Notes: a model not told the origin generated them from the letters alone. Shown: positions 33,571 through 61,016, numbered from the stretch's first letter. The stretch is DNA of 64,000 bases from an uncultured Bacteroidales bacterium (GCA_944321155.1 CALUKG010000002.1:1-64000); one strand, 5' to 3'. Numbers and translations are program-made.

Positions 33571-33578
33571 TATATTTG
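33571..33578 (+). promoter_or_regulatory. -7 element of rdgB
   Basis: TATATTTG, 25 nt before the rdgB ATG; the -33 box is not at ideal spacing. Confidence 0.5.
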
Positions 33579-33603
33579 CAGCTGTAATTATATATGGACG
33601 ACT

Positions 33604-36723: not shown

Positions 36724-36731
36724 TACCTTTA
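36724..36731 (+). promoter_or_regulatory. Possible -7 element upstream of the palindromic element and rsmH
   Basis: TACCTTTA, one base off TAnnTTTG. If active, the 36745-36924 element would lie inside the rsmH leader. The -33 box is unclear. Confidence 0.3.
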
Positions 36732-36739
36732 CAAATTGA

Positions 36740-36929: not shown

Positions 36930-36942
36930 TAGGATAATCTAG

Positions 36943-37869: not shown

Positions 37870-37872
37870 GCT

Positions 37873-38235: not shown

Positions 38236-38245
38236 TTGGATATAA

Positions 38246-40417: not shown

Positions 40418-40430
40418 TAATATATTCGTT

Positions 40431-41876: not shown

Positions 41877-41890
41877 TCTTCTATTGAGCT

Positions 41891-42202: not shown

Positions 42203-42257
42203 AAAATCCAAATCTTTTTCAGTGATAACCAAGTTGTAAGAATTGAAACATTGGGGT

Positions 42258-43163
42258 CTATCTCATATATCCTTGGATAAAATCTAAGATTTTCTCGCTC
42301 TCATCAGGATGAAACCAATGAATCTCCTTGTCTGCATTAAACCAGGTAAACTGTCGTTTGGCATAATTGCGTGAGTCCTGCTTGATTTTTTCGATGGCAA
42401 AATCAAGCGTACAATTACCTTCCATGTATTGGTACAGTTCTTTATATCCCACCGTATTGAGGCTGTTTAAGTGGCGGTATGGGAACAAAGGTTCTGCCTC
42501 ATTTATTAAGCCTTCCTCAATCATTTGGTCTACCCGTAGGTTTATTCTTTCATATAATTCGGGTCTTGGTCTGTTTAGGCCTATTTTGACAATGTTAAAG
42601 GGCCTTTTTTTCGTTTGTCCTGTACAGAAGCTGGAATAAGGCTGTCCGGTAGCAATGGATACTTCTAGTGCGTGCAACATGCGTTTATGGTTGAATCTAT
42701 CCACTTTTTCATAATGAACTGGGTCCACTTTTTTTAGTTCTTGCTGTAGCCATTCAAGACCATTTTGTTGATATTGTTCGTTAACTTCCTTCCTGATATG
42801 TTCAGGAACAGATGGTATGTTGTCAAATCCTTTGCAGACCGCATCGATATACATCATGGAGCCTCCAACCAATAGTTGGTTAGGATTGACGGCGAATAAA
42901 TCTTCTAGAAGTTTTATTGCCTCTTCTTCATATTGTCCTGCACTATAACTATCGAAAATGGATTGTGTTCCGATAAAGTAGTGTTTTACTTGCAACAACT
43001 GTTCTTGGGTAGGTGCTGCTGTACCGATTTTCAACTCCTTATATATTTGGCGTGAATCGGATGAAATGATTGGTGCGCCCAGTAATTTTGCTATGTTGAA
43101 ACTGAGCTCTGTTTTGCCTACTCCTGTTGGACCTAAGAGAACAAATAAAGTGGAAGATTGCAT
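42258..43163 (-). CDS. miaA: tRNA dimethylallyltransferase
   Basis: A 301-residue enzyme adding dimethylallyl to A37 of tRNAs reading UNN codons. P-loop LLGPTGVGKTELS, SSDSRQIYKELKIGTA (catalytic Asp region), and the C-terminal DSRNYAKRQFTWFN are diagnostic. Length standard. Last gene of the five-gene minus-strand run that begins at 46948; it lies 30 bp after the lamin-tail gene. Confidence 0.95.
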   Translation of the reverse strand: MQSSTLFVLLGPTGVGKTELSFNIAKLLGAPIISSDSRQIYKELKIGTAAPTQEQLLQVKHYFIGTQSIFDSYSAGQYEEEAIKLLEDLFAVNPNQLLVGGSMMYIDAVCKGFDNIPSVPEHIRKEVNEQYQQNGLEWLQQELKKVDPVHYEKVDRFNHKRMLHALEVSIATGQPYSSFCTGQTKKRPFNIVKIGLNRPRPELYERINLRVDQMIEEGLINEAEPLFPYRHLNSLNTVGYKELYQYMEGNCTLDFAIEKIKQDSRNYAKRQFTWFNADKEIHWFHPDESEKILDFIQGYMR

Positions 43164-43193
43164 AAATGATTTTCTTACAAATGTAGGGTCTTT

Positions 43194-44993: not shown

Positions 44994-44994
44994 A

Positions 44995-45591
44995 TTATTT
45001 GTATCGAATCAGATTCATAAACTCTTCGCGCGTTTTTGCTTGCTGAAATGCACCGGTAAAATCTGATGTCGTTGTTATGGAGTGTTGTTTCTGGATGCCT
45101 CTCATTTGCATACATAGATGTTGTGCCTCAATGATTACCATTACGCCAAGAGGATTGAGTGTACGTTGTATGCAATCCTTAATTTGAGTGGTCATTCTTT
45201 CCTGTACTTGCATTCTTCTTGCAAAAACCTCTACTACACGTGGTATTTTGCTAAGGCCGGTTATACGCCCATTGGGAATATAGGCAACATGCACTTTTCC
45301 AAAGAAAGGCAATAGGTGATGTTCGCACATAGAATAAAAGTCTATGTCTTTTACGATGACCATTTGCTTGTAATCTTCTTCGAACATAGCACTTCGAAGA
45401 ATTGCTTCCGGGTCTTGGTCATACCCTTGCATCAGGAATTGATATGCTTTGGCTACTCGTTCAGGTGTTTTTATCAAGCCTTCCCGTTTGGTATCTTCTC
45501 CGAGAATCTCAATAACACTTTTGATTTTTTCTGCTATTTGAGAAGTTTTCTCTGCATTATATTGGAAATTATTCTGATTGGAAGTGCTCAT
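44995..45591 (-). CDS. folE: GTP cyclohydrolase I
   Basis: A 198-residue enzyme converting GTP to dihydroneopterin triphosphate, the first step of folate synthesis. Zinc-binding motifs: [20 protein letters not shown] (Cys and His) and [11 protein letters not shown] (second Cys), with [20 protein letters not shown] between. Length normal for the short form. In the run between the SPOR protein and the lamin-tail protein, spaced 2 and 1 bp. Confidence 0.96.
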
Positions 45592-45593
45592 GA

Positions 45594-46112
45594 CTATTTT
45601 AATATTTGTATTAAATCCCGAACTATATATACATCTCCTTGGATGGTAGGGAATTTATTGATGATTTCCTGCCGTAGCAGGTTGCTTTCGTCCTGATTCC
45701 TGAAATTGCCTAGACGCACTTTCCAGAAAGGAGGGTTATAGATAACGTAAGTTGGAATGTCAGGAAATTGGGCTTGCATTTCTTTTTCAATTTTGAATGC
45801 CTCTGCTTTGGCAGTTTTGGGTGCATTGCTGGAAAATACTTGAACCCTGTATCCTTGAATTTCTGCCGTCTCTATTGTTGATGTTCCGGAAATCTTGGTA
45901 GAAATAATATTTATCAGGCGTTGGTCCTGATAGATGGTTACTTTGCCACCTTCCAAACTGTCGGCTAATGCCGTAAATATTTTTGGAGGCGTTTTATGTA
46001 AAGTGGAGTCTTGGATAAACTGGGTTGAGTCTTTTGCAAGATTGTCGGCTGCCTGTATGGACAGAGCAAATATAAAAACATATCCCAAGACAAATAAATA
46101 TTTTTGTGACAT
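45594..46112 (-). CDS. SPOR-domain protein
   Basis: A 172-residue exported protein: signal ([17 protein letters not shown]) and, from about residue 85, a SPOR domain ([19 protein letters not shown] ... [16 protein letters not shown]) that binds denuded glycan strands at division sites. It probably acts at the septum or envelope. Second gene of the minus-strand run. Confidence 0.85.
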
Positions 46113-46126
46113 GGCTTATGCTGTTT

Positions 46127-46948
46127 TTAATACTTGTCGAAACGACATGTAGCACAATTGCGGTTGTTCTTGAATATGTAAGATAATTTTATACCTGCTG
46201 TAAAATAGCCGTCTGCCCATTTTGATTGTTTTCCTGACGTTTCGCCTGATGGATTGATAAATGGATATCCGTCAAGACTGCAACTGGTATTGTCAAGCAA
46301 TGTTTGATGGCAATCAACTTCCAATCCTATTGTGAAATTGTTGGAAATCGGAAAATCTACACCTAACCCGATAGGAATGGTTGGAGTGAACCGACTAACA
46401 TTTTTCTCTGTAGTGCCAAAGTGAGTATAGCTTATGTTGCTATATGTAGCTCCAATGCCACCGAAAATGTAAAACCATTTGCCAACTTCAGTGAATGGAT
46501 AATATTGGAACGTTACATCGGGTTCAACAATAAATGAGGAAAATTCTTTTCGTTGATTGGCCGCCTCCAGATATTTGAAATTGTTGCCATTGAGTTTACC
46601 ACCTAACACATGGAAACGTAATCCTACATGTTTTTGTAAAGGTATCATGTACGAAAGTTCTCCGTAAAAGCCTAAATGAGTATCCCAATTATTTGAATTT
46701 TGGTCAACTATAGCCAGGCCAGGAAACTCAACGTCACCAAAATATTGGTTTAATCCAAATTCTAGTGTTAAAATGTGTCCGGAACCTTTTCCTTTTGTAT
46801 GTATACCATATGAATTGGCGCGGTTATTCCACGAGTATACCTTCTTATATCTACCGTCGTTTGTGATGATTCTTCTCTTTTGTGCGCTGATAATCAGCGG
46901 TATAGACAAAAAGAAGAGAAGAATAAATATGTGTTTGTATTTAGTCAT
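46127..46948 (-). CDS. Outer-membrane beta-barrel protein
   Basis: A 273-residue protein with a signal peptide (IFILLFFLSIPLIISAQ) and alternating amphipathic strands (LTLEFGLNQYFGDVEF, FYGELSYMIPLQKHVGLRF, FYIFGGIGATYSNISY, YFTAGIKLSYIF). After the last strand the chain continues with NNRNCATCRFDKY, an unusual C-terminal Cys pair. Similar in style to PorT/OmpW-like barrels; not assigned. First gene of the run ending with miaA, with a strong promoter at 46972-47003. Confidence 0.75.
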   Translation of the reverse strand: MTKYKHIFILLFFLSIPLIISAQKRRIITNDGRYKKVYSWNNRANSYGIHTKGKGSGHILTLEFGLNQYFGDVEFPGLAIVDQNSNNWDTHLGFYGELSYMIPLQKHVGLRFHVLGGKLNGNNFKYLEAANQRKEFSSFIVEPDVTFQYYPFTEVGKWFYIFGGIGATYSNISYTHFGTTEKNVSRFTPTIPIGLGVDFPISNNFTIGLEVDCHQTLLDNTSCSLDGYPFINPSGETSGKQSKWADGYFTAGIKLSYIFKNNRNCATCRFDKY

Positions 46949-46971
46949 ATGATGCTAATTTCAGAGCGTGA

Positions 46972-47003
46972 CAAAGATATAAAAAAAAATTTTGTTACAC
47001 AAT
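46972..47003 (-). promoter_or_regulatory. Promoter of the beta-barrel/SPOR/folE/miaA run
   Basis: Minus strand: -33-like ATTG (47000-47003) and -7 TATCTTTG (CAAAGATA at 46972-46979), 20-bp spacing, 23 nt before the ATG. Confidence 0.7.
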
Positions 47004-47288
47004 ATGTGAGAGAAGCTCTTCTATTTAATGCTTTTTAATTGATTCGTTCTATTATACTCTCAGATAGTTGCTTGTGTGTTGATGGAAGAGTGTGAAATAT
47101 GACTTTATATGTGTATTATATGTAAATTTTATTGGATTTGTAATAGGTTATGTGGCTTGATTGGGATGTGGATGTGACCGATCTAGTAGGATGTCGTTGT
47201 TGGGTTGTTATGGAATCTTATACTGATTGGATAAATATTTAAGTGAAAAACTTATGGAGGAATATGGATACATTCTGCTGAAAATGGT

Positions 47289-47296
47289 TACCTTTG
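47289..47296 (+). promoter_or_regulatory. -7-like element upstream of the acetyltransferase start
   Basis: TACCTTTG. If real, translation must begin after it, which favours GTG 47317. Confidence 0.45.
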
Positions 47297-47316
47297 TGCA
47301 CCTGAAAAATACGGCA

Positions 47317-47907
47317 GTGAATGAGATAGAAAAAATGCGTAATGGGGAGTTGGCGGATTTTACCTCTCCTGAGATGCAGGCAAGTTTCAAGCATGCCAAA
47401 TCATTGCTTGCTCGAATGCGTACTATGAGTGCTTATGATGCAGATTACAGGACGTTGTTGGAGCAGCTTATTCCTTCCATTCCTCAAACATCGATTGTTT
47501 TTCCTCCTTTTCATTGTGATCATGGACATGGAATTATAATGGGGCATCATGTTTTTGTTAATGCAGGATGTACCTTCTTGGATGGTGCTTTTATTCGGAT
47601 TGGCCATCACACACTGATTGGCCCTTCGGTACAGATTTATACACCGCATCATCCATTGGATTATAGGGAACGCCGGCAAGGAAAAGAGTTTGCTTATCCG
47701 GTGACAATAGGTGATGATTGTTGGATTGGTGGAGGAGTTGTTATTTGTCCTGGTGTCACAATAGGTGATAGGGCCATTGTTGCTGCTGGAAGTGTGGTGA
47801 CAAAAGATGTTCCTCCAGATACTTTGGTTGCAGGAAATCCAGCTGTCGTGAAGCGGATACTTAATGGAAATAATAATGACAGGGATGATTTTGTAACAGA
47901 AATGTAA
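47317..47907 (+). CDS. Sugar O-acetyltransferase (maltose/galactoside type)
   Basis: A hexapeptide-repeat left-handed beta-helix enzyme transferring acetyl from acetyl-CoA to sugars. NEIEKMRNGELADFTSPEMQ matches the usual family N-terminus, followed by GHHVFVNAGCTFLDGAFI, the catalytic-His region IYTPHHPLDYRERRQGKE (quoted in part), IGDDCWIGGGVVICPGVTIG and VTKDVPPDTLVAGNPA. The frame is open from 47227 (ATG 47284 also possible), but GTG 47317 fits the family start and lies after a -7 element; it yields 196 residues. The 3' end overlaps a putative Pho box. Confidence 0.85.
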   Translation: MNEIEKMRNGELADFTSPEMQASFKHAKSLLARMRTMSAYDADYRTLLEQLIPSIPQTSIVFPPFHCDHGHGIIMGHHVFVNAGCTFLDGAFIRIGHHTLIGPSVQIYTPHHPLDYRERRQGKEFAYPVTIGDDCWIGGGVVICPGVTIGDRAIVAAGSVVTKDVPPDTLVAGNPAVVKRILNGNNNDRDDFVTEM

Positions 47908-47908
47908 T
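47892..47908 (+). promoter_or_regulatory. Putative Pho box upstream of the response regulator
   Basis: TGTAACAGAAATGTAAT: two hexamers (47892-47897, 47903-47908) with 11-bp period, like the PhoB direct repeat. It lies 52 bp before the regulator start and suggests autoregulation. No ideal -7 element follows at 10 bp. Confidence 0.5.
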
Positions 47909-47959
47909 ATGTTTTACATGTGGTTGTCAATTGAACTCCCTTTTTTTGCATAAAATTAT

Positions 47960-48649
47960 ATGCTTATGGAAACAGCTCGAATTTTAGTCGTTGACGATGA
48001 AGAAGATTTGTGTGAAATCTTGCAGTTCAATCTGGAAACAGAGGGATACGAGGTGGAAGTTGCCTATTCTGCTGAGGAAGCACTCCAAAAGGACATTGCC
48101 AATTTTGATTTGATACTTCTTGATGTCATGATGGGAGAGATTTCCGGCTTTAAGATGGCTCGCATCTTGGCAGCTGATCCTAAGACGGCAAACATACCGA
48201 TTATATTTATTACAGCCAAAGATACAGAGAATGATTTGTTGACTGGCTTTAGTATTGGAGCAGAGGATTATATAGCTAAGCCTTTCTCCATTAGGGAAGT
48301 CCAGGCGAGGATAAAGGTAGCTTTGCGAAGAAGGAATATTGTGGAAAAGGAGCCTGTTCATGTAATTCGTTATGAAACTTTGGCAATTGATCTGGATAGC
48401 AAAAAAGTAACTCTGGATAATGTAGAGATACCATTTACTAAAAAAGAATTTGAAATTCTCAAATTGTTTATGCAATGCCCGAACCGTGTGTTTACACGCG
48501 ATGAGATTTTAGATAAGGTGTGGACAAATGAGGTATGTGTACTTGACAGAACCATTGATGTGAATATTACGAGATTGCGTCGGAAAATAGGCCCCTATGG
48601 AAAAAACATAGTGACGCGTTTGGGCTATGGATATACTTTTGAAATGTAA
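47960..48649 (+). CDS. phoB: OmpR/PhoB-family response regulator
   Basis: A 229-residue regulator (ATG 47960 or 47966). Receiver domain: ILVVDDEEDLCEIL (acidic pocket), LILLDVMMGEISG (phospho-Asp in LLD), FITAKDTENDLLTGFSIGAEDYIAKPFS (Thr and Lys switch residues, quoted in part). C-terminal winged helix: PFTKKEFEILKLFMQCPNRVFTRDEIL and VDVNITRLRRKIG type region. PhoB identity is inferred from the PhoR-like partner, the Pho-box repeat upstream and two matching boxes in the nearby phosphatase cluster. Confidence 0.8.
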   Translation: MLMETARILVVDDEEDLCEILQFNLETEGYEVEVAYSAEEALQKDIANFDLILLDVMMGEISGFKMARILAADPKTANIPIIFITAKDTENDLLTGFSIGAEDYIAKPFSIREVQARIKVALRRRNIVEKEPVHVIRYETLAIDLDSKKVTLDNVEIPFTKKEFEILKLFMQCPNRVFTRDEILDKVWTNEVCVLDRTIDVNITRLRRKIGPYGKNIVTRLGYGYTFEM

Positions 48650-48653
48650 TACT

Positions 48654-49913
48654 ATGAAACTGAACACCAAATTGTTTCTTTATTTTTCGAGTGTCTTTGT
48701 CGTTTTTATGGTGATAGCCACTGTATTTCTGTATCAGAATGACAAGAAACTCCGTCAACAACAGCTGGATCATGAGTTGGCCATATATACTCATATGGTG
48801 CATTTGTGTTTTGAGGATTCTGCTTTTCTGCAGCAGGAGACCACGCAAAGAATAAAATCTTTAGTGGTGGATTCGGCACTAAGAATTACTGTAATTGCTC
48901 TTGACGGGCATATTGTTTTTGATTCGGAATATGCGGGTGATACAGCTATGGATAATCATTTGCAGCGGATTGAAATCCAAGAGGCATTGTCAACAGGTAT
49001 AGGAAAAGTTGCCCGACAATCCAATTCACTGCATAAGTCTTATTATTATTTTGCGGAAAAATTCCCTGATATGTATGTGCGAGCATCCATGCCATATAAT
49101 GTGACCATTCTCTCATCATTGAAGTCTAATGAGGCTTTGTTGGAGCTAATGGCTGTTTTGTTGGTGATTGCAATGGTTGTGCTTTATTTCATCTCTCAGC
49201 GTTTTTCTGATAATATTGCAGGACATGAAACCTCTTTTAAGGAACAGCTTACTCTTAATATTTCACATGAATTGAAGACACCAGTCAGCAGCATTTTGGG
49301 TTATACAGAAAGTATTATCAATAATCCGGAACTACCCAAGGAGAAAAGAGACCAGTTTATAGACAGAACTTATACGCAAGCTTTAAGGTTGAAAAGTCTT
49401 CTTGAGGATATTTCGATACTCAATAAGCTCTCAAAAGAAAGCGAACTTTATCAGAGGGTGAACTGTAATCTGGCTGATATAATCCAAAATGTGATAAATG
49501 ATGTACAGCTTCAAGCGGAAAAGAACCATGCTTTGATAGAAAAAAGAATATTCCCACAAATGCCAATTCTTGGCAATCCCACGCTTCTTTATTCCATTTT
49601 TAGAAATATGCTGGACAATGCATTGCTTTATGGAGGTGAAGGGGTGGTTATCCGTATAACTTGCTTTAATTCAGATGCCAAACAATATTATTTTACATTT
49701 ACAGATAATGGTCCGGGTGTACCTGAGGAGCATGTAGCCCATCTTTTTGAACGTTTTTATCGTGTGGACTCCGGACGGAGCCGCAAGATGGGAGGCACAG
49801 GTCTCGGATTGGCCATAGTAAAACATGCCGTTCGTTTCCATGGGGGAAACATAGCGGCAGAAAACAGACCAGAAGGCGGACTCGGGTTTATGTTCAACTT
49901 AAAGAAGAAGTAG
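48654..49913 (+). CDS. phoR: Sensor histidine kinase, PhoR-like
   Basis: A 419-residue inner-membrane kinase: TM1 (LFLYFSSVFVVFMVIATVFL), an extracytoplasmic domain of about 130 residues, TM2 (LLELMAVLLVIAMVVLYFI), then the H-box LNISHELKTPVSSILGYTES, N-box YSIFRNMLDNALLYG, G1 FTDNGPGVPEEH, F-box LFERFYRVD and G2 GGTGLGLAIVKH. No HAMP or PAS domain is evident. It starts 4 bp after the regulator stop. Its 3' end overlaps the minus-strand regulator gene by 20 bp. The PhoR call is inference from context. Confidence 0.82.
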   Translation: MKLNTKLFLYFSSVFVVFMVIATVFLYQNDKKLRQQQLDHELAIYTHMVHLCFEDSAFLQQETTQRIKSLVVDSALRITVIALDGHIVFDSEYAGDTAMDNHLQRIEIQEALSTGIGKVARQSNSLHKSYYYFAEKFPDMYVRASMPYNVTILSSLKSNEALLELMAVLLVIAMVVLYFISQRFSDNIAGHETSFKEQLTLNISHELKTPVSSILGYTESIINNPELPKEKRDQFIDRTYTQALRLKSLLEDISILNKLSKESELYQRVNCNLADIIQNVINDVQLQAEKNHALIEKRIFPQMPILGNPTLLYSIFRNMLDNALLYGGEGVVIRITCFNSDAKQYYFTFTDNGPGVPEEHVAHLFERFYRVDSGRSRKMGGTGLGLAIVKHAVRFHGGNIAAENRPEGGLGFMFNLKKK

Positions 49914-50844
49914 GCAAATCGTTTATATCTATCAGTTGATTGACAATGGCATAGATAGTCAACCCTGCAGGGCTATGTATTTGCAGCTTGCGGGCAATAT
50001 TTCGTCTGTGAGTAATTACGGTATGCACCGATAGATATAGCTTATCTGCAATTTCCTTGTTTGTAAGTCCTTTGACAACGCTCACTACAATGTCCTTTTC
50101 ACGTTGGCTTAGTGCTTCTTGAGAAGTTGTAGGAGCCTCTTTCGGTTTTATGGGATTCTTACGTTTGCTTTGTTCGAGCAATCTTACAGCAGGAACAAAG
50201 AGATTGTCTTCAACAAGGCAATGCGTTGCCAAATCCTTTTCGCAAGTGAAAATGTCGAATAATGCGGAATTGAGCAGGTCATTTCCTGATTCGGCAGGAT
50301 AATATTTGATGATGATGTTTTTCAGTTCTGTCAGTTTGTCGGCTACATGTTCATCATCTATGGCGCGATGTCGTTCTGCAAATGTTTCAATACTATAGTC
50401 ATGGGGGTGCTGACCATTGAGAAGCTGCTCAACATACACGAAAACAGTCTTGTCCTCATATTCCATGTGGCGGTACACTTCCTGTGAATAGGCGTCAAAG
50501 TATTGCAGAATCATGAGTGCAACTTTGTTCTCGAGGCCGCAATTAATGGCTTCAATCAGTTTCCTTCGTATCATGGGGAAACAGAAATCCAGAAAATATC
50601 CGTGGGCCTTTTGCAGATAGTTGACCAATTCCTTGACAGATAAATCTTCTATATTACAATTCTCGCCTCCCTCCTTATAGTTGGCAACTGCCAAAAAGGT
50701 AGGTGTGTGAACCTGATTCTGTTCACACACTTCCTTTACGGTTTTGTCACCAAAGCCAAGAGGAAGACCGAAACGGCTTAACACTTGCAGCAACTCATAA
50801 TGGTTACCGACAAGTTCGCTCATTTTGTCATTTTCCTTATACAT
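49894..50844 (-). CDS. RIC-like N-domain + hemerythrin + LuxR-type HTH regulator
   Basis: A 316-residue fusion. Residues 20-55 (LSRFGLPLGFGDKTVKEVCE, HTPTFLAV) resemble the N-terminal domain of YtfE/ScdA di-iron repair proteins. Residues 75-225 form a hemerythrin-like bundle with candidate di-iron ligands H81, H126/E130, H159 and H208/E212 all present. Residues 244-305 are a LuxR/GerE helix-turn-helix (LSQREKDIVVSVVKGLTNKE). This suggests a transcription factor sensing O2, NO or iron. It starts 20 bp after the TonB receptor stop, so it is likely the last gene of that operon. Confidence 0.85.
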   Translation of the reverse strand: MYKENDKMSELVGNHYELLQVLSRFGLPLGFGDKTVKEVCEQNQVHTPTFLAVANYKEGGENCNIEDLSVKELVNYLQKAHGYFLDFCFPMIRRKLIEAINCGLENKVALMILQYFDAYSQEVYRHMEYEDKTVFVYVEQLLNGQHPHDYSIETFAERHRAIDDEHVADKLTELKNIIIKYYPAESGNDLLNSALFDIFTCEKDLATHCLVEDNLFVPAVRLLEQSKRKNPIKPKEAPTTSQEALSQREKDIVVSVVKGLTNKEIADKLYLSVHTVITHRRNIARKLQIHSPAGLTIYAIVNQLIDINDLPTSSLS

Positions 50845-50864: not shown

Positions 50865-53195
50865 TTATAAACTGAATTTCAAACCTGCAAAATAGCTGCG
50901 AGGGGTGCTTGGACCATATATATAGCCTCCATCGCGTTTGCTGCCCTCGTCAAAGTCTTTCTGGAAGCTGTTCAAAATGTTTTGAACACCTGCATTGACT
51001 TGAAGCGTGGTATTGCCTTTCAGCTGAATGTCGTATGCCACCTTCAGATTCAAGTCAAAGAAGGCAGGAGTCAACACTTCTTCGTCATGTTCAATGTATC
51101 CAGCACAATGTTGTACCCACATGCGTCCTGTATATGTGCCCGATGCGGCAATGTTCAGACCTCTGATAGGTAAATAATTAACAGTTAGGTAGCCATAACT
51201 GTTCGGAGAGCGGAACATTTCTTTTCCGGTTTTTCTTCTCAATACGGCTTGCTCATCTTCTGTCCATCCCCATTCTGCTTCATCGTATTGGCTTTGTTGG
51301 ATAGTACCTCCCAATTGGATGTTCCATTTGTTGCTGGGTGCCACGCGTGCTTCCAAACTTACGCCCATAACAGTTGCTCCTTTGCCATTTTGGCGTTCAT
51401 ATTTCAGTAATGATTCGTCGGTGCTGGGCATTTCGTTCAATACAAATACGTCCTGCAATTTAGTAAAAAATCCGTCAATCAGGAAATTTGTCTGAACTTG
51501 ACCGAAACTTTTGTAGAAATCAGCAGATAGGTTTACACTGTGTGAACGTTCGGGACGCAGATTTTCAGCATTGTGGATAATGGAACTTTTTCCTCCAACA
51601 GCTGTAATGTGCAAGTCTTCGTCAAAAATCTGTGGGGCTCTGAATCCCATGGCATATCCTGTACGCAGGCTGACCCATTCAGCGGGATTGTAACGGAAGT
51701 TTACGCGTGGACTGAAGATGGGATTTTTAATCAGATTGTGCTTGTCCATGCGCACACCCAACAACATGGTCCATGTCTTGTTCTTCCATTCGTTTTGTGC
51801 AAATGCGCTATACATGAAAATATCTTGCTGTACATCGTGGTTGTGGGCCAGTGTCTCGTCATGCAGTGTGTTGTAGTTCACTTCTGCTCCTACTGTCAGG
51901 TCGGCTGGCATAAACAGACATTTTTCCATGCTGTAAATGTATTGGACACCGCCGACTGTGGTCAGGTCTTTGGTTGTTCCATAAGCATTGGGGTCCTTGT
52001 CTGTTCCATAATAACTGTTTCTGTGTACGTGTTGTGCAGAGGCATAAACACTTAAACGATGCTTGTAGTCACGGGTAAACCAATCGAACTTGATGCCACC
52101 CGTATTGATGTTGTGTTCTGTTTGTTCTGCGATATTAGCCTCGTGGGGTGGGATAGACAAGCTGTCTCCACCACGCCTGAATTCGTATGAATTGTGATAT
52201 TCAATGGATAATTTGGATTGAAGAGAAGTCTTGAAATAGCTTCTGAATCCAAGATTATGATTACGCAGCATGCCAATTTCAGTAAAACCGTCTCCATTGG
52301 CATCCCAACCTTCACGTTGTTTGGTGCTACCATACAGACTTGCCCCATATTTGCCGTTTTCTGATACCAGCGCACCATTGACACTGGTGTTGACATCTGT
52401 TTTAGTTCCACCAATCAGAGTGGTCGTGTTGCTTATGGTCAGTGAGTTGTTAAGTGGCTCTTTTGTGATGATGTTGATAGTGCCGGCAATCGCATTCGCA
52501 CCATATAATGCCGAACCTCCTCCGCGTATCACTTCTACTCGTTCTATCATATTGGCTGGTATCTGTTCCAGACCATATACTCCAGCCAGCGCGCTGAATA
52601 TGGGGCGGCTGTCTATCAATATCTGCGTATATGGCCCGTCCAGACCGTTGATTCTCACTTGAGTGAAGCCGCAGTTTTGGCAATTGTTTTCCACCCTCAC
52701 ACCTGGTTGGAAATTCAGTCCTTGTGCCATGCAGGTCGCATTGGTGTTTTCGAAAATTTTAGGAGTCAACACATTGACGATATTTGACGCTTCCCTGCGT
52801 GTGGTTTCACCTCTGTTGGCGCTTACTACCACATTGTCAAGCAATACGGCATCTTCTTCCATTACGAAGTTTACTTCCTGTGTGCTGTTGGCTTTTACAT
52901 CAATTTCCTTGCTGATGGTTTTGTAACCCACAGAACTTGCAGTAATGGTGTATTTCCCTTCTGGTAGGTTCTTGAGGAAATAGTGTCCAGTGGCATCTGT
53001 TGTGGTTCCAATGGTGGTTCCTTTGATAGCTATGGTAATAAATCCCAGGTGGTCACCGGTTGTTTTGTCGGTAACATCACCGATAATGTGTGCGTCGCTT
53101 TCGGTTTTCACACGTTTGGCATCGTTGTTGGGCTCTATGGCATAAGTGAGAAGTACATGACATAACAATACCATGAGAAAATATATTTTTTTCAT
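50865..53195 (-). CDS. TonB-dependent receptor with CQNC motif
   Basis: A 776-residue outer-membrane receptor: signal peptide to about residue 19, carboxypeptidase-regulatory-like domain about 37-115 (IIGDVTDKTTGDHLGFITIA), plug about 130-250 containing NNCQNCGFTQVRINGLDGPY (Cys172 and Cys175) and IERVEVIRGGGSALYGANAI, then a beta-barrel ending YFAGLKFSL. The siderophore/cobalamin/metal-type plug and the His-rich partner gene suggest a metal or metal-complex ligand, not glycan (no SusD gene is present). Middle gene of a three-gene minus-strand unit. Confidence 0.88.
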   Translation of the reverse strand: MKKIYFLMVLLCHVLLTYAIEPNNDAKRVKTESDAHIIGDVTDKTTGDHLGFITIAIKGTTIGTTTDATGHYFLKNLPEGKYTITASSVGYKTISKEIDVKANSTQEVNFVMEEDAVLLDNVVVSANRGETTRREASNIVNVLTPKIFENTNATCMAQGLNFQPGVRVENNCQNCGFTQVRINGLDGPYTQILIDSRPIFSALAGVYGLEQIPANMIERVEVIRGGGSALYGANAIAGTINIITKEPLNNSLTISNTTTLIGGTKTDVNTSVNGALVSENGKYGASLYGSTKQREGWDANGDGFTEIGMLRNHNLGFRSYFKTSLQSKLSIEYHNSYEFRRGGDSLSIPPHEANIAEQTEHNINTGGIKFDWFTRDYKHRLSVYASAQHVHRNSYYGTDKDPNAYGTTKDLTTVGGVQYIYSMEKCLFMPADLTVGAEVNYNTLHDETLAHNHDVQQDIFMYSAFAQNEWKNKTWTMLLGVRMDKHNLIKNPIFSPRVNFRYNPAEWVSLRTGYAMGFRAPQIFDEDLHITAVGGKSSIIHNAENLRPERSHSVNLSADFYKSFGQVQTNFLIDGFFTKLQDVFVLNEMPSTDESLLKYERQNGKGATVMGVSLEARVAPSNKWNIQLGGTIQQSQYDEAEWGWTEDEQAVLRRKTGKEMFRSPNSYGYLTVNYLPIRGLNIAASGTYTGRMWVQHCAGYIEHDEEVLTPAFFDLNLKVAYDIQLKGNTTLQVNAGVQNILNSFQKDFDEGSKRDGGYIYGPSTPRSYFAGLKFSL

Positions 53196-53885: not shown

Positions 53886-54695
53886 CTATTTCTTCATTTT
53901 CTGTTCAATGCGGATTTTTGCCTTGCGTTGTTCCTCTTTCAGCCTTGTCACATCCTTCATCACAATGGCGAAGTGGTAGCTTTCGCCGAGTGCCCTCCGT
54001 TCATTCTCAGAGAGATAGTAAATATAGCTGCTGCCGCCTTTGAGGGTTACTTTAATGCGGTCTTTCATGTGTTCGGAAATGAATTGGAGCAATGGCATTG
54101 CATCCTCATCATTTAGCAGCAAGGTTTCATAATGCATGCCGTCTGTTTCAAACTGGTGCACATCGCCCGGCACTGACGAAACGCTGATGTCGTTCGAGGT
54201 GAGTTCCACCATGTTATAGTTGATTTGCTTGCCTCCGCAGTAAGTGCTTTTCATCACCACCTTAGCACTTTCCGTGATGAAGGTTTGCAGATAGCACCGT
54301 GCAGCATTGCTTTCCGTGCGCAGCAGCTTGTTCACATATTGCCCCTCTTCCATGTATAGGGTGTCATGTTCAAACCGGAAATTCTTCGCCAGCGAGTCCT
54401 TTACATGTTCCATTTGTGGCAGCAGGCTGTCGCAATAGGCCAATGTGCGTTTGCTTTCAATCACCACAATGCTGTCAGACAGATGTTTTGCAATACGTCT
54501 CATCGGTACTTCACGCGGATAAAGAATATGCACACTGTCCAATTCGTTTTTAGCGGCATTCAGTTGGTTTTGGGCTATCAGTGCGCGTGCCTCTTGCAGG
54601 TGCAGGGCAGCTTTCTCCTCGTCACTCAGTTGGTTACATGCAGCAAATGCTACAATCAGAAGCAGTATGTAATGGAATTTGCTCTTCATAATCAA
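53886..54695 (-). CDS. Conserved lipoprotein with helical N-terminal region
   Basis: A 269-residue exported protein (start 54695 or the in-frame ATG two codons on). Signal and lipobox ILLLIVAFAACN place a lipid-modified Cys at about residue 20. The next 100 residues are helical and TPR-like (EEKAALHLQEARALIAQNQL), followed by a beta-containing domain (IKVTLKGGSSYIYYLSENERRALG) and a basic coiled C-terminus (RLKEEQRKAKIRIEQKMKK). Family not assigned. It has a near-perfect promoter at 54743-54774. Confidence 0.75.
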   Translation of the reverse strand: MIMKSKFHYILLLIVAFAACNQLSDEEKAALHLQEARALIAQNQLNAAKNELDSVHILYPREVPMRRIAKHLSDSIVVIESKRTLAYCDSLLPQMEHVKDSLAKNFRFEHDTLYMEEGQYVNKLLRTESNAARCYLQTFITESAKVVMKSTYCGGKQINYNMVELTSNDISVSSVPGDVHQFETDGMHYETLLLNDEDAMPLLQFISEHMKDRIKVTLKGGSSYIYYLSENERRALGESYHFAIVMKDVTRLKEEQRKAKIRIEQKMKK

Positions 54696-54742
54696 TATCC
54701 AGTTTAAAGCAGATACGTCGTTTGGTCTAATTCAAATCTATG

Positions 54743-54774
54743 CAAAGATACGATATATAGGCGGTTATGACAAA
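54743..54774 (-). promoter_or_regulatory. Promoter of the lipoprotein gene
   Basis: Minus strand: -33 TTTG (CAAA at 54771-54774) and -7 TATCTTTG (CAAAGATA at 54743-54750), 20-bp spacing. Confidence 0.8.
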
Positions 54775-54840
54775 TTATCCTTATCTTTGAATAAGATATG
54801 GACGGCTCGGCAGAATCCAATTATAAAACTGTGTTTTACA

Positions 54841-54872
54841 TTTGCTTCTGCACTCGCCTTTACCTATCTTTG
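54841..54872 (+). promoter_or_regulatory. Promoter of the SDR gene
   Basis: -33 TTTG at 54841-54844, -7 TATCTTTG at 54865-54872, 20-bp spacing. Decides for ATG 54897. Confidence 0.8.
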
Positions 54873-54896
54873 CCCTACTGCAAAATACAATGGTTT

Positions 54897-55652
54897 ATGG
54901 AAAATGGAAAATCTTCTCCCCGCCGGGTATTCATCACCGGTGGTGCCCATGGCATCGGCCGCAGTATCGTACAGGCATTTGCCGCTGCAGGCCATCAGGT
55001 CGCTTTTGTCGATAAGGATGCAGAGCGGGGTAGGTTGGTAGCTCAGGAAACAGGGGCCTTTTTCTATCAAGTGGATGTGGCGGATAAAGACGCTTTGGAA
55101 GTGGTTATGCATCAACTCTTCCAGCAATGGGGCGATATAGATATATTGGTCAATAATGTGGGCATCAGCAAGTTTACACCCATTGTAGAAACTAGTGTCG
55201 AGGAATTTGAACGCATCATCCGAGTAAACCTTACTACGGCTTTTATCACCTCACGCATGTTGGTGCTTCATCGTAACTCTTTGCCGCAGCCCAATCCCTT
55301 TGGTGGACGCATCATCAATATTTCCTCCACGCGCTATTTGCAGAGCGAACCCGGCACCGAGGCCTATTCGGCATCCAAAGGTGGTATTACATCTTTGACC
55401 CATGCCTTGGCTGCTTCCTTGGCCGATTTTCGTATTACGGTCAATTGCATCGCTCCCGGATGGATACACGTCAACGAGAACGAGCACATCCGTTCCCTTG
55501 ACAATGACTTCCATTTCTCTAAACGTGTCGGCTACCCCGAAGATATCGCACGGGCATGTCTTTTCCTTGCTAGAGAGGAAAATGACTTTATCAACGGTCA
55601 ATGTCTGGTAATCGATGGCGGCGCCACCAAAAAGATGTTCTATCCGGAATAA
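54897..55652 (+). CDS. Short-chain dehydrogenase/reductase
   Basis: A 251-residue NAD(P)-dependent oxidoreductase of unknown substrate. Classical SDR motifs: cofactor loop FITGGAHGIGRSIVQAF, Asp in FVDKD suggesting NAD preference, LVNNVGIS, and catalytic Ser in INISSTRY with Tyr/Lys in AYSASKGG; C-terminal ERI/NGQCLVIDGGA. The promoter at 54841-54872 lies inside the longer open frame from 54798, so ATG 54897 is used. GC-richer codons than the adjacent TonB receptor gene. Single-gene unit. Confidence 0.9.
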   Translation: MENGKSSPRRVFITGGAHGIGRSIVQAFAAAGHQVAFVDKDAERGRLVAQETGAFFYQVDVADKDALEVVMHQLFQQWGDIDILVNNVGISKFTPIVETSVEEFERIIRVNLTTAFITSRMLVLHRNSLPQPNPFGGRIINISSTRYLQSEPGTEAYSASKGGITSLTHALAASLADFRITVNCIAPGWIHVNENEHIRSLDNDFHFSKRVGYPEDIARACLFLAREENDFINGQCLVIDGGATKKMFYPE

Positions 55653-55734
55653 ATTTATGTTTTCTGAACGGGTTTGTGGAAATTCTTGATAACAGACAAA
55701 AAACGTTGAATTTTTAATATAGCAAACAAATCAT

Positions 55735-55769
55735 TGTAATATCTATGTAATATATGCCAGATACTTTTG
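55735..55769 (+). promoter_or_regulatory. Pho box plus -7 element of the phosphate-cluster TonB receptor
   Basis: TGTAATATCTATGTAAT (55735-55751; hexamers 11 bp apart) followed after exactly 10 bp by the -7 element TACTTTTG (55762-55769). No -33 TTTG is needed in PhoB-activated promoters. Same geometry as 58621-58655. Confidence 0.65.
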
Positions 55770-55790
55770 CTCTCAAAAATTATTCGTTTT

Positions 55791-58526
55791 ATGAGATGTT
55801 TAAGTATCTTGTGTTCAGTGCTTTTTATGGCTGTTTCGTTGTCTGCAGAGCCATTAGTTGGTGTGGTTGTAGATGGGCAGACTAATGAGTTGTTGGTCGG
55901 TGCAACTGTTTATTTGAAAGAAAATCCTTCTATAGGAACAACAACGGGTTTGGACGGTTCTTTTGTATTACCTGACGTTCCTAGTGACGCCTGTGTGGTA
56001 TGCAGCTATATTGGTTATTGCTCCAAAGAATTGCCTGTTAATAAGATGGGTAGTTCGTGTAATGTTGCGTTAGAACCGGCTTCAATGTCTTTAGGCGAAT
56101 TGTCTGTAGTAGCGAAGGCCGATCGTTCAACAGAACAAAATGCCCGTCATTTGGAAAAAGTGGCTCCTACTGTGCTCAACGTAATGAGTGCGCGTAGTAT
56201 AGAGGTTTCACCGGATATGAATGTTGCTGGTGTTTTGCAGCGTATGTCTGGAGTTACAATGGAAAAAGATGGTTCTGGCGACGGACAATATGCTATTCTT
56301 AGGGGAATGGATAAAAGATATAATTATACATTGGTCAATGGAGTCAAGATACCGAGCCCTGATAATAAGAATAGATATGTGGCATTGGATATGTTTCCTA
56401 GTGAATTGCTCGATCGCTTGGAAGTACATAAAGCTTTGACAGCAGATATGGAGGGAGATGCAACAGGAGGGGTAGTAAATATGGAAATGAAGGATGCCCC
56501 AGAACATTTTGTATTGAATGCTCATCTTGCTTCTGGTTTTAGTACAATGACATTGTCGGAAGGTATTACGCTGTATGAACGTAAGGGGCTGATGAATAAT
56601 GCTCCTCGTACTTTATATGGTAGTGATTATGCTGCAAGTATGGCAGACTTTACTATGTCTACAAGTACACTCAATCGTAGAAACGCTTTACCTGATATGA
56701 CTGCCGGACTTTCAATTGGACATCGTTTTTTGCATAATAAGTTTGGCATTATGGCAGCAGCCAGTTTTCATAATTATTATAAAGTGACCGATGGTTTTTT
56801 CTTTTCTGATGTAATGCCTCAATCAGAACAGACTGTTCGTCTCAGTAGTATGAAAAATCGTACCTATTTCGAACAGTTGATGGAATATGGGGCACATCTG
56901 AAGTTGGATTACCGAATTTCTTCACGTCATGATATCTCATGGTATGGGGCTTTTGTAGGAACAGGTAGTTGGCAATTGAGAGATACGGAAGAGACGGATT
57001 TGTCTTTGAATTACAATCCTCAAAAAGGGAATGCAACCATATATTATGAAACGCGTTCAAGGTATACCGAGCAACATATATTTAATTCAACATTGCAAGG
57101 TAAACATGAATGGCTGGAAGGCTTTTCTACTGATTGGTCGGTTGTCTATTCTTTGGCAGGGCAAGACAGACCGGATAACACATACATCACTTTGGAAAAC
57201 AATAGGCAAAACAACGTTGATTACATAACGGCTGATTATTCCGAAAGACGTTGGGAGAGAAATGATGATCGGGACTGGACTGCTTATTTGAATGTGAAAT
57301 ATGGGACAAACATAGCAGAAAACCATTTCTTAGAGTTGAAAGTTGGCGGTTTATATCGCAATAAGGTACGTCACAACAATTATGTTTCTTATAACTTTCT
57401 TCCATCTGGAGTGTCACGTCCTGTAATGGGACAGGATTTTAATTCTTTGAATGAAATAGAATGGAGAGTAAGTACACCTAAAGGTAGTGTGGGCCCGCTT
57501 AATTATAATGCAGGAGAAAATATAGGCGCTGCTTATTTGATGGGAACATATACCTATGACCAAATCAGGCTGATTGCAGGAATTAGGGCTGAGCATACTG
57601 ACCAACATTACTATGTTTATTATCCAAAAGCAGGTGATTCACCTAATGGAGGACAGATATATTGGGACTTTTTGCCCTCTGTACATATGAAATATTCACC
57701 GATAAAAGATATGAATATCCGTGCCGATTATTTCCGTTCCATTAATCGTCCGGGCTTCTTTGAGATTGTACCTTATTCTATTATTTATGAAGATTATATG
57801 GAATTTGGAAACAAAGACCTTAAGCGGGCTGAAATTGATAATGTGGATATACGTTGGGAGTGGTTCCCAAAAGCTACAGAGCAGCTTATGGTCGGGTTGT
57901 TTTATAAGCATATCAAGAATCCAATAGAATACGCATATTATACTGTCAACAATCGTCAGTTTGGATATGGGCCGGCCAATTTAGGTACAGCTCAAAATGT
58001 TGGGGTGGAGGTGGATTTGACCAAATATTTCAGAAATTTCGGAATTAAGGCTAACTATACATATACGCATTCTGAAATAACTACTCCAAAGACACTTTAT
58101 GAATATGATTCGGAAGGTAATTTGCATCGTACAGAAAAGGATCAGACACGACCATTGGTAGGACAAGCTCCGCATGTTGCCAATTTGGCGTTATTGTATA
58201 AGGATACAAAATATGGATGGGATGCCCAATTGGCAGGTGCCTATACCAGTGAAAAAATTGCCATTGCATCACATTATTACAATTCAGACTATTGGGATGG
58301 AGATTATTTCTCTTTGGATGCATCAGTAAGCAAATCTTTTAAATGTGGATTGGTTATTTTCTTTAAGGGAAGCAATTTGCTGAATACAAAATATGTCAGA
58401 TATATTAAAACGGTTAATTCCTACAATGCGGAATTTCCGTATCAGAATGTAGATTCAGGTAAAACGTTGATTAAAGAGAATCGTTCAGGACAGTCGTTCT
58501 TGTTTGGATTACGTTTTAAGATGTGA
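55791..58526 (+). CDS. TonB-dependent receptor (phosphate-cluster)
   Basis: A 911-residue outer-membrane receptor. Signal peptide (CLSILCSVLFMAVSLSA), carboxypeptidase-regulatory-like domain (LVGVVVDGQTNELLVGATVY, to about residue 105), plug domain (VAGVLQRMSGVTMEKDGSG, YNYTLVNGVKIPSP, VEVHKALTADMEGDATGG type) and a long barrel ending GQSFLFGLRFKM. The plug is of the Caulobacter-type TonB receptor class. No SusD partner. With the Pho box upstream and a phosphatase downstream, a phosphorylated ligand is inferred. ATG 55791 chosen because the -7 element covers the TTG at 55767. Confidence 0.88.
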   Translation: MRCLSILCSVLFMAVSLSAEPLVGVVVDGQTNELLVGATVYLKENPSIGTTTGLDGSFVLPDVPSDACVVCSYIGYCSKELPVNKMGSSCNVALEPASMSLGELSVVAKADRSTEQNARHLEKVAPTVLNVMSARSIEVSPDMNVAGVLQRMSGVTMEKDGSGDGQYAILRGMDKRYNYTLVNGVKIPSPDNKNRYVALDMFPSELLDRLEVHKALTADMEGDATGGVVNMEMKDAPEHFVLNAHLASGFSTMTLSEGITLYERKGLMNNAPRTLYGSDYAASMADFTMSTSTLNRRNALPDMTAGLSIGHRFLHNKFGIMAAASFHNYYKVTDGFFFSDVMPQSEQTVRLSSMKNRTYFEQLMEYGAHLKLDYRISSRHDISWYGAFVGTGSWQLRDTEETDLSLNYNPQKGNATIYYETRSRYTEQHIFNSTLQGKHEWLEGFSTDWSVVYSLAGQDRPDNTYITLENNRQNNVDYITADYSERRWERNDDRDWTAYLNVKYGTNIAENHFLELKVGGLYRNKVRHNNYVSYNFLPSGVSRPVMGQDFNSLNEIEWRVSTPKGSVGPLNYNAGENIGAAYLMGTYTYDQIRLIAGIRAEHTDQHYYVYYPKAGDSPNGGQIYWDFLPSVHMKYSPIKDMNIRADYFRSINRPGFFEIVPYSIIYEDYMEFGNKDLKRAEIDNVDIRWEWFPKATEQLMVGLFYKHIKNPIEYAYYTVNNRQFGYGPANLGTAQNVGVEVDLTKYFRNFGIKANYTYTHSEITTPKTLYEYDSEGNLHRTEKDQTRPLVGQAPHVANLALLYKDTKYGWDAQLAGAYTSEKIAIASHYYNSDYWDGDYFSLDASVSKSFKCGLVIFFKGSNLLNTKYVRYIKTVNSYNAEFPYQNVDSGKTLIKENRSGQSFLFGLRFKM

Positions 58527-58620
58527 ATTGCATAATAGTATAGAATGTCAGAGAGGAAGGTTGGTTATCGTATTTTGTTCATTGTTTTATAGTAATAATG
58601 CAATAGAAACAGAACCTTTT

Positions 58621-58655
58621 TGTAATAATTATGTAATGTGTGCGGAATACTTTTA
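58621..58655 (+). promoter_or_regulatory. Pho box plus -7 element of the beta-helix lipoprotein gene
   Basis: TGTAATAATTATGTAAT (58621-58637; 11-bp period), then 10 bp, then TACTTTTA (58648-58655). Nearly identical in layout and sequence to 55735-55769. Confidence 0.65.
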
Positions 58656-58676
58656 CACCCGAAATCATAAATAATT

Positions 58677-59996
58677 ATGCATATGAGAACATTAATTCAA
58701 TCTATTTGTGCTGCAGCTTGTGCTGCATTTATTTTTACGGCTTGCGAACCTGTTAATACGCCTAATCCTACTCCGGATTTAGATGGTGATGAAACGGTTA
58801 TGAAGTTGCAGGGGACGAAAATAGAGTGGCCTGCTGATACGACAGTGATACTTGACCGCCATTTGGAAATAGGAGTTGATCAGTCTTTATACATACATGA
58901 AGGGGCAACTGTTATTGCCGATAATGCTGAACTTAAACCGGAGATTGTGGTTTTAGGTAATCTTTACGTTTTAGGAACAGAGAAAAAACCAGTAACATTT
59001 ACAGTGGAGGAGTCTTCACGTGCTAATCGTTTTTCCCGTAATTGGGGGGGAATTATTTGCGGATATGATAGCAAGGAAGTGGTACTCGAGAATGCTATTA
59101 TTGAATATGGAGGTGCACAGACTACTGAAGAGTCTTTGTCTTTCCGTCACAAATTATTTAAAACTGAAACCGGCGAGGGAGTTCCTGCATTCCATTTCTG
59201 CAATCCACAAGGCCAATTTGTTATCGTAAATTGTACTTTCAGATATAATGCAGAAGACCATACTTACATTACTGGTGGAAAGTCCATAATGATGAATAAC
59301 CGTTTTATTTGTAATGGTTTTGATGGAGGAGAAGCCATAAACTACAAATCTGAATGTTTGGCCGATATTGCCAATAACCTAATCTATGATGCGAACACTA
59401 ATGGTTTCAAATTAAGTAATGGTGGTTTTGTTAATGTACAGTCACATTTGATTTGTTATAACAATACTATGGTTAATTGTGGATGGCGTCGCCCGAAAGT
59501 GAAAGGAGGATGCATTTGGTTGGAGGATAATATTTGGGTTGAACTTTATAATAATCTGATGTATGACTGTCGTTGGGGACTGAAAGAAAGTGTTGAAGAG
59601 CCAATGGACCAGAAATCTGTAATAACTCCAAACTATTATTTTGCATCAACGCAAACTGGCTGGGAACAAATGCAACCAACTGAAGATGAAGAAGAGGGTA
59701 TCCGCAATGGAGCAGACGATATAATGAGTGAAAAGCCGGGAGATAAGGATCCTCTTTTTGCAAATTATACGCAACAGGAAAATGTAAATGTCAATGTAGG
59801 TGCTAATGAAGGGGATATCCCTCAGGAATGGAACGATGCATGGGACTTCTCTTTAAAGGCTGGTTCTCCTGCAGCACAAGGTGGAAAAACCGATTTTACA
59901 CGTCATTATGGCACTAAGGGCCTTACTTTTGCAACAGGAAAAACATATGCCTCACCCGAACCGGCTGAATATTTTGGCGCTTTTGGAGTGAAATAA
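58677..59996 (+). CDS. Right-handed beta-helix lipoprotein
   Basis: A 439-residue exported protein; lipobox FIFTAC with Cys23 makes it a likely surface lipoprotein. After a Pro/Thr linker (PVNTPNPTPD), repeated short strands (SLYIHEGATVIADNAELKPE, IVVLGNLYVLG, VVLENAIIEYGG, FVIVNCTFRYN, MMNNRFICNGF, ANNLIYDANTNGF, CYNNTMVNCG, LYNNLMYDCRWG) form a parallel beta-helix of about 300 residues. Such folds bind or cleave polysaccharides; no catalytic site is obvious. Own Pho-box promoter. Start 58677 or the ATG two codons later. Confidence 0.78.
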   Translation: MHMRTLIQSICAAACAAFIFTACEPVNTPNPTPDLDGDETVMKLQGTKIEWPADTTVILDRHLEIGVDQSLYIHEGATVIADNAELKPEIVVLGNLYVLGTEKKPVTFTVEESSRANRFSRNWGGIICGYDSKEVVLENAIIEYGGAQTTEESLSFRHKLFKTETGEGVPAFHFCNPQGQFVIVNCTFRYNAEDHTYITGGKSIMMNNRFICNGFDGGEAINYKSECLADIANNLIYDANTNGFKLSNGGFVNVQSHLICYNNTMVNCGWRRPKVKGGCIWLEDNIWVELYNNLMYDCRWGLKESVEEPMDQKSVITPNYYFASTQTGWEQMQPTEDEEEGIRNGADDIMSEKPGDKDPLFANYTQQENVNVNVGANEGDIPQEWNDAWDFSLKAGSPAAQGGKTDFTRHYGTKGLTFATGKTYASPEPAEYFGAFGVK

Positions 59997-60018
59997 TAAA
60001 ATAGGACAATGAATAGAG

Positions 60019-60059
60019 GCACTTTTACCGTTTTGCCATATGTAAAGCGGTAAAAGTGT
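60019..60059 (+). promoter_or_regulatory. Hairpin between beta-helix and phosphatase genes
   Basis: acttttaccg (60021-60030) / cggtaaaagt (60048-60057), 10-bp perfect stem, 17-nt loop, no T run afterwards. Likely an mRNA processing, stability or partial termination element in the operon. Confidence 0.5.
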
Positions 60060-60077
60060 CGTTAAATAATTATCGAA

Positions 60078-61016
60078 ATGAAAAGATTTTTTTTAATGGT
60101 TGTTTTGCCGTTATTGGCAATTGGTGCATTGGCACAGATACAGGTTCCTCAGTTGAACGAAGATACATGTTTTACTTTTCTTTTGGCAAATGACTTGGGG
60201 AGAAATGGTTATTATGATCAGAAACCAATTGCAGAGTTAATGGGTGAATTGGCTGCAGAAATTGATGTTGAGTTTGTGGCAGCTGCTGGTGATGTTCATC
60301 ATTTTGAAGGGATTGTCAGTACACAGGATCCGTTGTGGCTCACGAATTATGAGCAGGTCTATAGCCACCCTGAGTTGATGATTCCCTGGTATCCGATTTT
60401 AGGAAACCATGAATATAGAGGTAATACTCACGCCGTTATTGATTATAGTAAAGTAAGTCGTCGTTGGGAGATGCCTGCCCGTTATTATACAAAGGAATTT
60501 AATGTCAATGGAAAAGAGTCGGTTCTACTTGTTTTTATTGATACTCCACCGTTAATAGACAAATATAGGGAAGACATAGAGCAATATCCTGATGCGGCTA
60601 AGCAGAACATGAAAAAACAGTTGAACTGGTTAGACAAGGTTTTAGCGGGAAGTAATGCAAAGTGGAAAATTGTTATCGGTCATCATCCTGTTTTTGCAGA
60701 GTCAAGCAAAAGTGAACATGAAAGAACCGATCTTCAGAAACGTATTCTGCCGATTATGGAAAAATACAGAGTAGATGCTTATTTGTGTGGACATATTCAT
60801 AACTTCCAGCATATTAAGCCACAGTCTTCGTCCATTGATTTTTTGGTAAATTCTTCTGCTTCTTTGGCACGTAAGGTTAAGCCGATAGAAGGAACTCGTT
60901 TTTGTAGTGGTGATACTGGATTTACTGTAGTTTCACTTTCTGACAATGCATTGACATTTTTCTTGATGAATGTGCAAGGGCAGATAATTTATTCATACAC
61001 TCGTACGAAAGAGTAG
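60078..61016 (+). CDS. Metallophosphoesterase, purple-acid-phosphatase (ACP5) like
   Basis: A 312-residue exported enzyme (signal FFLMVVLPLLAIGALAQ). The calcineurin-like metal motifs are in order: D39-L-G in ANDLGRNG, GDVHH (71-75), GNHE (109-112), IGHHPVF and GHIHNFQH. The layout (N-terminal DxG, short spacing, SGDTGFTVV near the end) resembles tartrate-resistant acid phosphatase. The GDxxY tyrosine that gives purple enzymes their Fe3+ charge-transfer colour is replaced by His75. A periplasmic phosphomonoesterase role fits the upstream Pho boxes. No own promoter seen. Confidence 0.85.
   Translation: MKRFFLMVVLPLLAIGALAQIQVPQLNEDTCFTFLLANDLGRNGYYDQKPIAELMGELAAEIDVEFVAAAGDVHHFEGIVSTQDPLWLTNYEQVYSHPELMIPWYPILGNHEYRGNTHAVIDYSKVSRRWEMPARYYTKEFNVNGKESVLLVFIDTPPLIDKYREDIEQYPDAAKQNMKKQLNWLDKVLAGSNAKWKIVIGHHPVFAESSKSEHERTDLQKRILPIMEKYRVDAYLCGHIHNFQHIKPQSSSIDFLVNSSASLARKVKPIEGTRFCSGDTGFTVVSLSDNALTFFLMNVQGQIIYSYTRTKE

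Follow-up and report, generated by a model that had tools for sequence, protein, structure and literature searches.

A probable PhoB-controlled outer-membrane operon for phosphate scavenging in uncultured gut Bacteroidales

The locus and its three proteins

The window (the whole 64-kb stretch of DNA that was analysed, from a metagenome-assembled genome of an uncultured Bacteroidales bacterium) carries consecutive genes for a TonB-dependent receptor, a beta-helix lipoprotein and an exported phosphatase, two direct-repeat promoters and, further upstream, phoB and a phoR-like gene. These features are (positions in the window):

47892..47908, + strand: Pho-box-like repeat TGTAAC-N5-TGTAAT, the distal pair upstream of phoB
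47960..48649, + strand: phoB, phosphate-regulon response regulator of the Bacteroidetes type (NF053854, 349 bits, cut-off 270)
48654..49913, + strand: phoR-like sensor histidine kinase (NF053855, 454 bits, below the cut-off of 500; HisKA and HATPase_c domains)
55735..55751, + strand: candidate Pho box 1, TGTAAT-N5-TGTAAT, exact to the pattern and conserved; presumed ancestral promoter of the operon
55762..55769, + strand: -7 element TACTTTTG, exactly 10 bp 3' of box 1
55791..58526, + strand: TonB-dependent receptor, 911 aa (CarboxypepD_reg-like PF13715, plug PF07715, barrel PF00593)
58621..58637, + strand: candidate Pho box 2, TGTAAT-N5-TGTAAT, restricted to this genus
58648..58655, + strand: -7 element TACTTTTA, exactly 10 bp 3' of box 2
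58677..59996, + strand: beta-helix lipoprotein, 439 aa, lipobox Cys23 (PF13229; right-handed, pectate-lyase-like fold)
60078..61016, + strand: TRAP/ACP5-like metallophosphoesterase, exported, 312 aa, with no box of its own

An earlier note on this DNA had described the three genes as encoding a TonB receptor, a beta-helix lipoprotein and a phosphatase-like enzyme, and domain matches confirmed all three (the last as a calcineurin-like phosphoesterase). The phoB and phoR genes (47960-49913), located approximately 6-8 kb upstream of the operon and left unmentioned in that note, are the strongest local evidence for Pho control. The phoR-like kinase is shorter than the NF053855 model. It is adjoined on the opposite strand (49894-50844) by a gene whose product weakly resembles the di-iron FeS-repair (RIC/hemerythrin-like) family, in a fusion with a LuxR-type DNA-binding domain.

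The structural model of the receptor (pLDDT 68 overall) shows the barrel fold with a poorly modelled plug; its fold matches are generic, the nearest solved structures being siderophore receptors, and no ligand was inferred from it. For the lipoprotein, whose Cys23 is invariant among orthologues, the model (pLDDT 84) is closest to the pectate lyase Pel9A (Z 24.3 over 293 residues, rmsd 3.1 A). The nearest folds in general are those of pectate lyases, alginate epimerases and enzymes of the GH28 type, with Z scores of 20-24. Foldseek alone gave weak matches (best E 0.004) and a PDB sequence search with this protein returned nothing useful. A pectate-lyase-like fold shows no function. In the domain search the lipoprotein matched PF13229 (Beta_helix) only, and a SusD-like partner is therefore absent, which distinguishes the operon from SusCD/PusCD systems.

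The phosphatase is homologous to mammalian purple acid phosphatase (1ute) over 200 residues (E 2e-35) and keeps six of the seven metal-ligand positions (Asp39, Asp72, Asn110, His202, His239 and His241). The seventh, Tyr55 of uteroferrin, is replaced by His75 here and in nearly all orthologues. The roles of these positions are assumed to be those in uteroferrin, where the tyrosine gives purple enzymes their colour; with histidine in its place the enzyme is not expected to be purple, and its metals may differ. Judged by its sequence, it is a relative of TRAP/ACP5 and not a typical purple enzyme. It could act on periplasmic esters instead of a ligand imported by this receptor.

Conservation of the gene order

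The order receptor, beta-helix lipoprotein, phosphatase is kept in 18 Bacteroidales loci (Barnesiella, Muribaculaceae, Porphyromonadaceae and others), with 53-67% identity outside the genus; among these, the receptor is cut short in one locus (L038) and absent from a short contig in another (L042), and in two the phosphatase is truncated by the end of the contig. Such conservation indicates that the three genes are a conserved operon. A search of the phylum with a lipoprotein profile revealed strong matches in five further genomes (six loci), in all of which the lipoprotein gene, its product 29-41% identical to ours, directly follows that of a TonB receptor. Two of these loci also contain a recognisable phosphatase relative, and in another a calcineurin-like phosphoesterase gene comes next.

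One of the phylum-wide genomes (G034) has two receptor/lipoprotein pairs near phoU-phoB-phoR (phoU assigned by reading its sequence only), with genes for a PF12850-type phosphoesterase and a glycosyltransferase between them. Its contig (L197, 1-19501) carries a phosphate island, comprising the phoU-like gene, phoB, phoR, the PF12850-type phosphoesterase, the glycosyltransferase and both receptor/beta-helix pairs with phosphoesterases. In Flavobacterium johnsoniae, phosphoesterase and glycosyltransferase genes of this kind are grouped with lipid remodelling.

Comparison of the window with contigs of Ca. Gallipaludibacter merdavium (G059; L102-L104 and L051) revealed 97-100% identity over 54000-60576, about 82% over 31500-50500 and about 99% over 28500-31500 and 51000-52500. 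The near-identical block suggests that species of the genus have recently exchanged the scavenging operon; a chimeric assembly is a possible alternative.

Direct-repeat promoters and the genes they precede

The pattern TGTAAT-N5-TGTAAT-N10-TACTTTT(G/A) is present in the window at 55735-55769 and 58621-58655 (both + strand) and in no other copy, and the full pattern (TACTTTTR) did not appear in any of 100 dinucleotide shuffles of the window, which upholds the description of two boxes of the same geometry in the earlier note. Both -7 elements lie 21 nt 5' of the ATG, and the two promoters are identical at 27 of 35 positions. Origin of one promoter by duplication of the other was also considered and is unproven, as an alignment of the wider region scores no better than the best shuffle. 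The earlier claim that neither promoter has a -33 TTTG at normal spacing was confirmed by direct reading at 19-21 bp 5' of each -7 element, where the consensus scan also lists none. The interval between the receptor and lipoprotein genes revealed no terminator-like site, and read-through from box 1 into the lipoprotein gene therefore remains likely.

The relaxed repeat TGTAAYN5TGTAAY occurs three times in the 64 kb (0.09 expected), the third copy being that at 47892 before phoB, while the exact TGTAATN5TGTAAT has five copies in the whole 2.49-Mb genome. A genome-wide search for the full pattern with up to two mismatches yielded six matches (none for the reversed control); the four best-scoring ones lie 5' of the genes for the receptor, the lipoprotein, PhoB and a TonB-receptor-like protein of 1038 aa. 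When three mismatches were allowed, the control exceeded the real pattern (81 vs 55 matches), so only the best few sites were trusted. The site before the 1038-aa protein (L202:2260-6553, contig C4 of the same genome) reads TGTTAC-N5-TGTAAA-N10-TACATTTG; the protein has an N-terminal CarboxypepD_reg domain and is followed by a DUF5689 lipoprotein. These genes are likely a further member of the Pho regulon.

The pattern was then applied blind to 200 genomes of the family, with the reversed pattern as a control, giving 29 sites against 0. Four of these are the present locus in its two carrier genomes. Among the 25 lying elsewhere, 17 directly precede phosphate transport genes (protein families assigned for representatives): 5 Na/Pi cotransporters, 6 PiT, 2 PstS, 1 PstC and 3 OprP-type porins; one further site precedes a TonB receptor. 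Another 13 sites found across the order include those before a Na/Pi cotransporter, PiT, two Porin_O_P-like proteins, polyphosphate kinase (ppk), a TonB receptor and phoB. Since most of its sites directly precede phosphate transporter and porin genes, the motif very probably serves these Bacteroidales as their Pho box; it overlaps the -33 region, and 10 bp separate it from the -7 element TAnnTTTG. The set of phosphate genes behind it would be hard to explain other than by PhoB, and the proposal that the two boxes are Pho boxes, made from the window alone, is thereby supported. Beyond the order, the strict pattern gave only two other matches in 344 other Bacteroidota genomes; the half-site evidently drifts across the phylum, and a phylum-wide consensus is not claimed.

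The E. coli Pho box is made up of direct repeats that recur every 11 bp; it overlaps the -35 region and leaves 10 bp to the -10 element. The Bacteroidales motif shares this geometry, whereas its half-site is TGTAAY/TGTWAY instead of TGTCAT, its -7 is the Bacteroidota element read by a different primary sigma factor, and in many operon promoters of the Bacteroidales type the register comprises four half-sites. Pho boxes of the direct-repeat type have been described, as have two PhoB sites in front of phoB (PMC10294691) and the Bacteroidota -7 consensus TAnnTTTG (PMC7366714). Bacteroides fragilis has a PhoB regulator of the same type, which binds the pstC promoter directly and on which the pst genes, phosphatases and polyphosphate kinase depend (PMC3547664). 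No PhoB binding motif or consensus was found in that paper, no Pho box or motif is defined in the F. johnsoniae study discussed below (PMC8115612), and no Bacteroidota Pho-box consensus was found in the open-licence literature searched. The present data offer a testable definition for Bacteroidales (TGTWAY half-sites, 11-bp period, N10, TAnnTTTG), with which phosphate regulons could be recognised in gut genomes from nothing but their sequence.

The regions upstream of the orthologous genes were scanned with a matrix trained on phosphate-transporter promoters only. The best matrix site 5' of the receptor had p of approximately 0.005 per locus against shuffles in 14 of 15 loci outside the genus and p 0.03 in the fifteenth (L046). 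A box, strict or weaker, is present in the receptor promoter of all 15 orthologous loci examined; the earlier note had named conservation of the repeat upstream of orthologues as a point on which its reading could fail. In two loci (L036 and L043) the matrix picked another pair of half-sites, but taking the -7 element as the anchor brings out the same architecture there as well. TACTTTTG or TAATTTTG occupies the -7 position of the receptor promoter in 14 of the 15. Most relatives have four half-sites of varying strength in an 11-bp register ending 10 bp before the -7 (e.g. TGTTAC-N5-TGTAAT-N5-TGTAAA-N5-TGTTAT-N10-TACTTTTG), while the window has two. A clear box is absent from the most distant receptor promoters. 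No box precedes the beta-helix gene outside this genus, all other loci having a single operon promoter. The statement that two boxes define the locus thus holds for this genus and fails elsewhere, and this distribution suggests that in this genus a further promoter, built like the first, was acquired for the lipoprotein and phosphatase genes.

The phoB promoter departs from this arrangement, in that its -7 TTTG lies 32 bp (10 + 2x11) beyond the box, compared with the standard 10 bp. A box was found in only 5 of 30 phoB promoters, 4 of which share the 32-bp spacing. With moderate confidence, this spacing may be taken to mean that the register is unchanged and that the proximal half-sites have degenerated.

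Proposed function and alternative readings

The closest known counterparts are the phosphate utilisation systems PUSIII and PUSIV of F. johnsoniae, likened to the present operon by gene pair and fold, in which a TonB receptor gene also stands next to that of a beta-helix/pectin-lyase-fold lipoprotein. The PUSIV pair, Fjoh_0545 (receptor) and Fjoh_0546 (lipoprotein), belongs to a phoBR operon (PMC8115612) and rises by log2 8-10 on phosphate depletion (PMC8115612, Lidbury et al. 2020); the phoBR genes of the window, about 6 kb upstream, provide a similar linkage. Unlike these systems, the operon described here has a TRAP/ACP5-like phosphatase as its third gene and defined Pho boxes. By this analogy it is of an already known kind, a phosphate-starvation TonB system, here apparently with the Bacteroidales form of the Pho box. 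The analysis adds to this kind a promoter architecture with four half-sites, a second box peculiar to the lineage, linkage to phoBR, a phosphatase of the TRAP-like type and a regulon that appears reduced, no Pst or PiT having been found. The comparison extends a phosphate-starvation outer-membrane system of plant-associated Flavobacterium to uncultured gut Bacteroidales.

The preferred reading, with a probability of roughly 0.85, is that this is a PhoB-controlled outer-membrane operon for scavenging phosphate. It very probably draws phosphate out of organic matter once the supply of phosphate is exhausted, as its gene content and promoters suggest, which would imply that the gut offers a source of organic phosphate. 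The phosphate-scavenging role put forward in the earlier note is supported, including by the induction of the F. johnsoniae pair. Under low phosphate, PhoR would phosphorylate PhoB, which would bind the TGTAAY half-sites (11-bp spacing) in place of the missing -33 element, 10 bp before TAnnTTTG, and recruit RNA polymerase with the primary sigma factor. The beta-helix lipoprotein, predicted to lie on the surface, would bind or trim a phosphate-bearing polymer, the product of which the receptor would import using TonB energy; the TRAP-like phosphatase would then free phosphate in the periplasm. A Na/Pi cotransporter would take it into the cell, a step proposed because neither PiT nor PstS was detected in the 96%-complete genome (a difference from B. 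fragilis), and one Na/Pi cotransporter was found.

Several other explanations were weighed. AT-rich intergenic DNA might have produced the two boxes by chance. In favour of this, the repeat TGTAATN5TGTAAT with two mismatches is no more frequent in the window than chance predicts (13 copies against an expected 14), and this loose pattern was dropped from the search for that reason. The reading has a negligible probability and is refuted by the shuffles, the family-genome counts and the retention of the box upstream of orthologues. The repeat could also be the site of another OmpR/PhoB-family regulator (responding to iron, redox state or envelope stress), with a cargo other than phosphate, e.g. 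an iron complex. Regulators of this family share direct-repeat sites and several are encoded in the genome, and the receptor model is nearest to siderophore receptors, although this match is generic for the fold. Such a regulator is nevertheless very unlikely, given that the motif precedes genes for PiT, Na/Pi cotransporters, PstS, PstC, phosphate-selective porins, ppk and phoB, that the operon ends in a phosphatase gene and that the similar-looking F. johnsoniae pair responds to phosphate depletion (PMC8115612).

Two further readings concern what the proteins do. The operon may be a carbohydrate-utilisation system with a polysaccharide lyase or hydrolase as its beta-helix protein; its control by phosphate would then be due only to phosphorylation of the glycan or to growth being limited by phosphate. 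The predicted fold, with the lyases and related enzymes named above as its nearest structures, is compatible with this, as is the frequent import of glycans by TonB receptors of the phylum; yet a shared fold is no proof of function, the operon has neither a SusD-like partner nor a carbohydrate-active enzyme besides the beta-helix protein, and phosphatase genes adjoin the lipoprotein gene in conserved loci, so that we regard it as unlikely. Somewhat less doubtful, though still improbable, is that the lipoprotein is an accessory factor for surface phosphatase activity and that the receptor imports an unrelated compound or aids surface display. The model for this is ElpS of Caulobacter crescentus, a low-phosphate surface lipoprotein whose release accompanies more phosphatase activity (PMC2996285), and the FI-FIII lipoproteins of F. 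johnsoniae are reported to be 31-36% identical to the low-phosphate lipoprotein of C. crescentus (PMC8115612). ElpS is, however, encoded beside a type II secretion system and not in a receptor operon, whereas the lipoprotein gene here is strictly coupled to a TonB receptor gene in every strong locus seen, both in these genomes and in others of the phylum, which argues for joint work on a ligand.

A broader reading may be entertained, tentatively and with less than even odds: the Pho regulon of this lineage would have shrunk almost to phoB and one operon mining an undescribed phosphate polymer, with Pst and PiT gone, the Na/Pi cotransporter unboxed (its promoter has the -7 without a box), the second box newly evolved and the block recently moved between species.

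Two minor observations were made among the strict Pho boxes in other genomes. In L065 and L068 the box precedes genes for small sigma-factor-like proteins (about 200 aa, putative), which may form an ECF sigma cascade under phosphate control. Two genomes from a single genus (L090:1501-1899 and L091:1467-1865) have it before the gene of a 114-aa exported protein.
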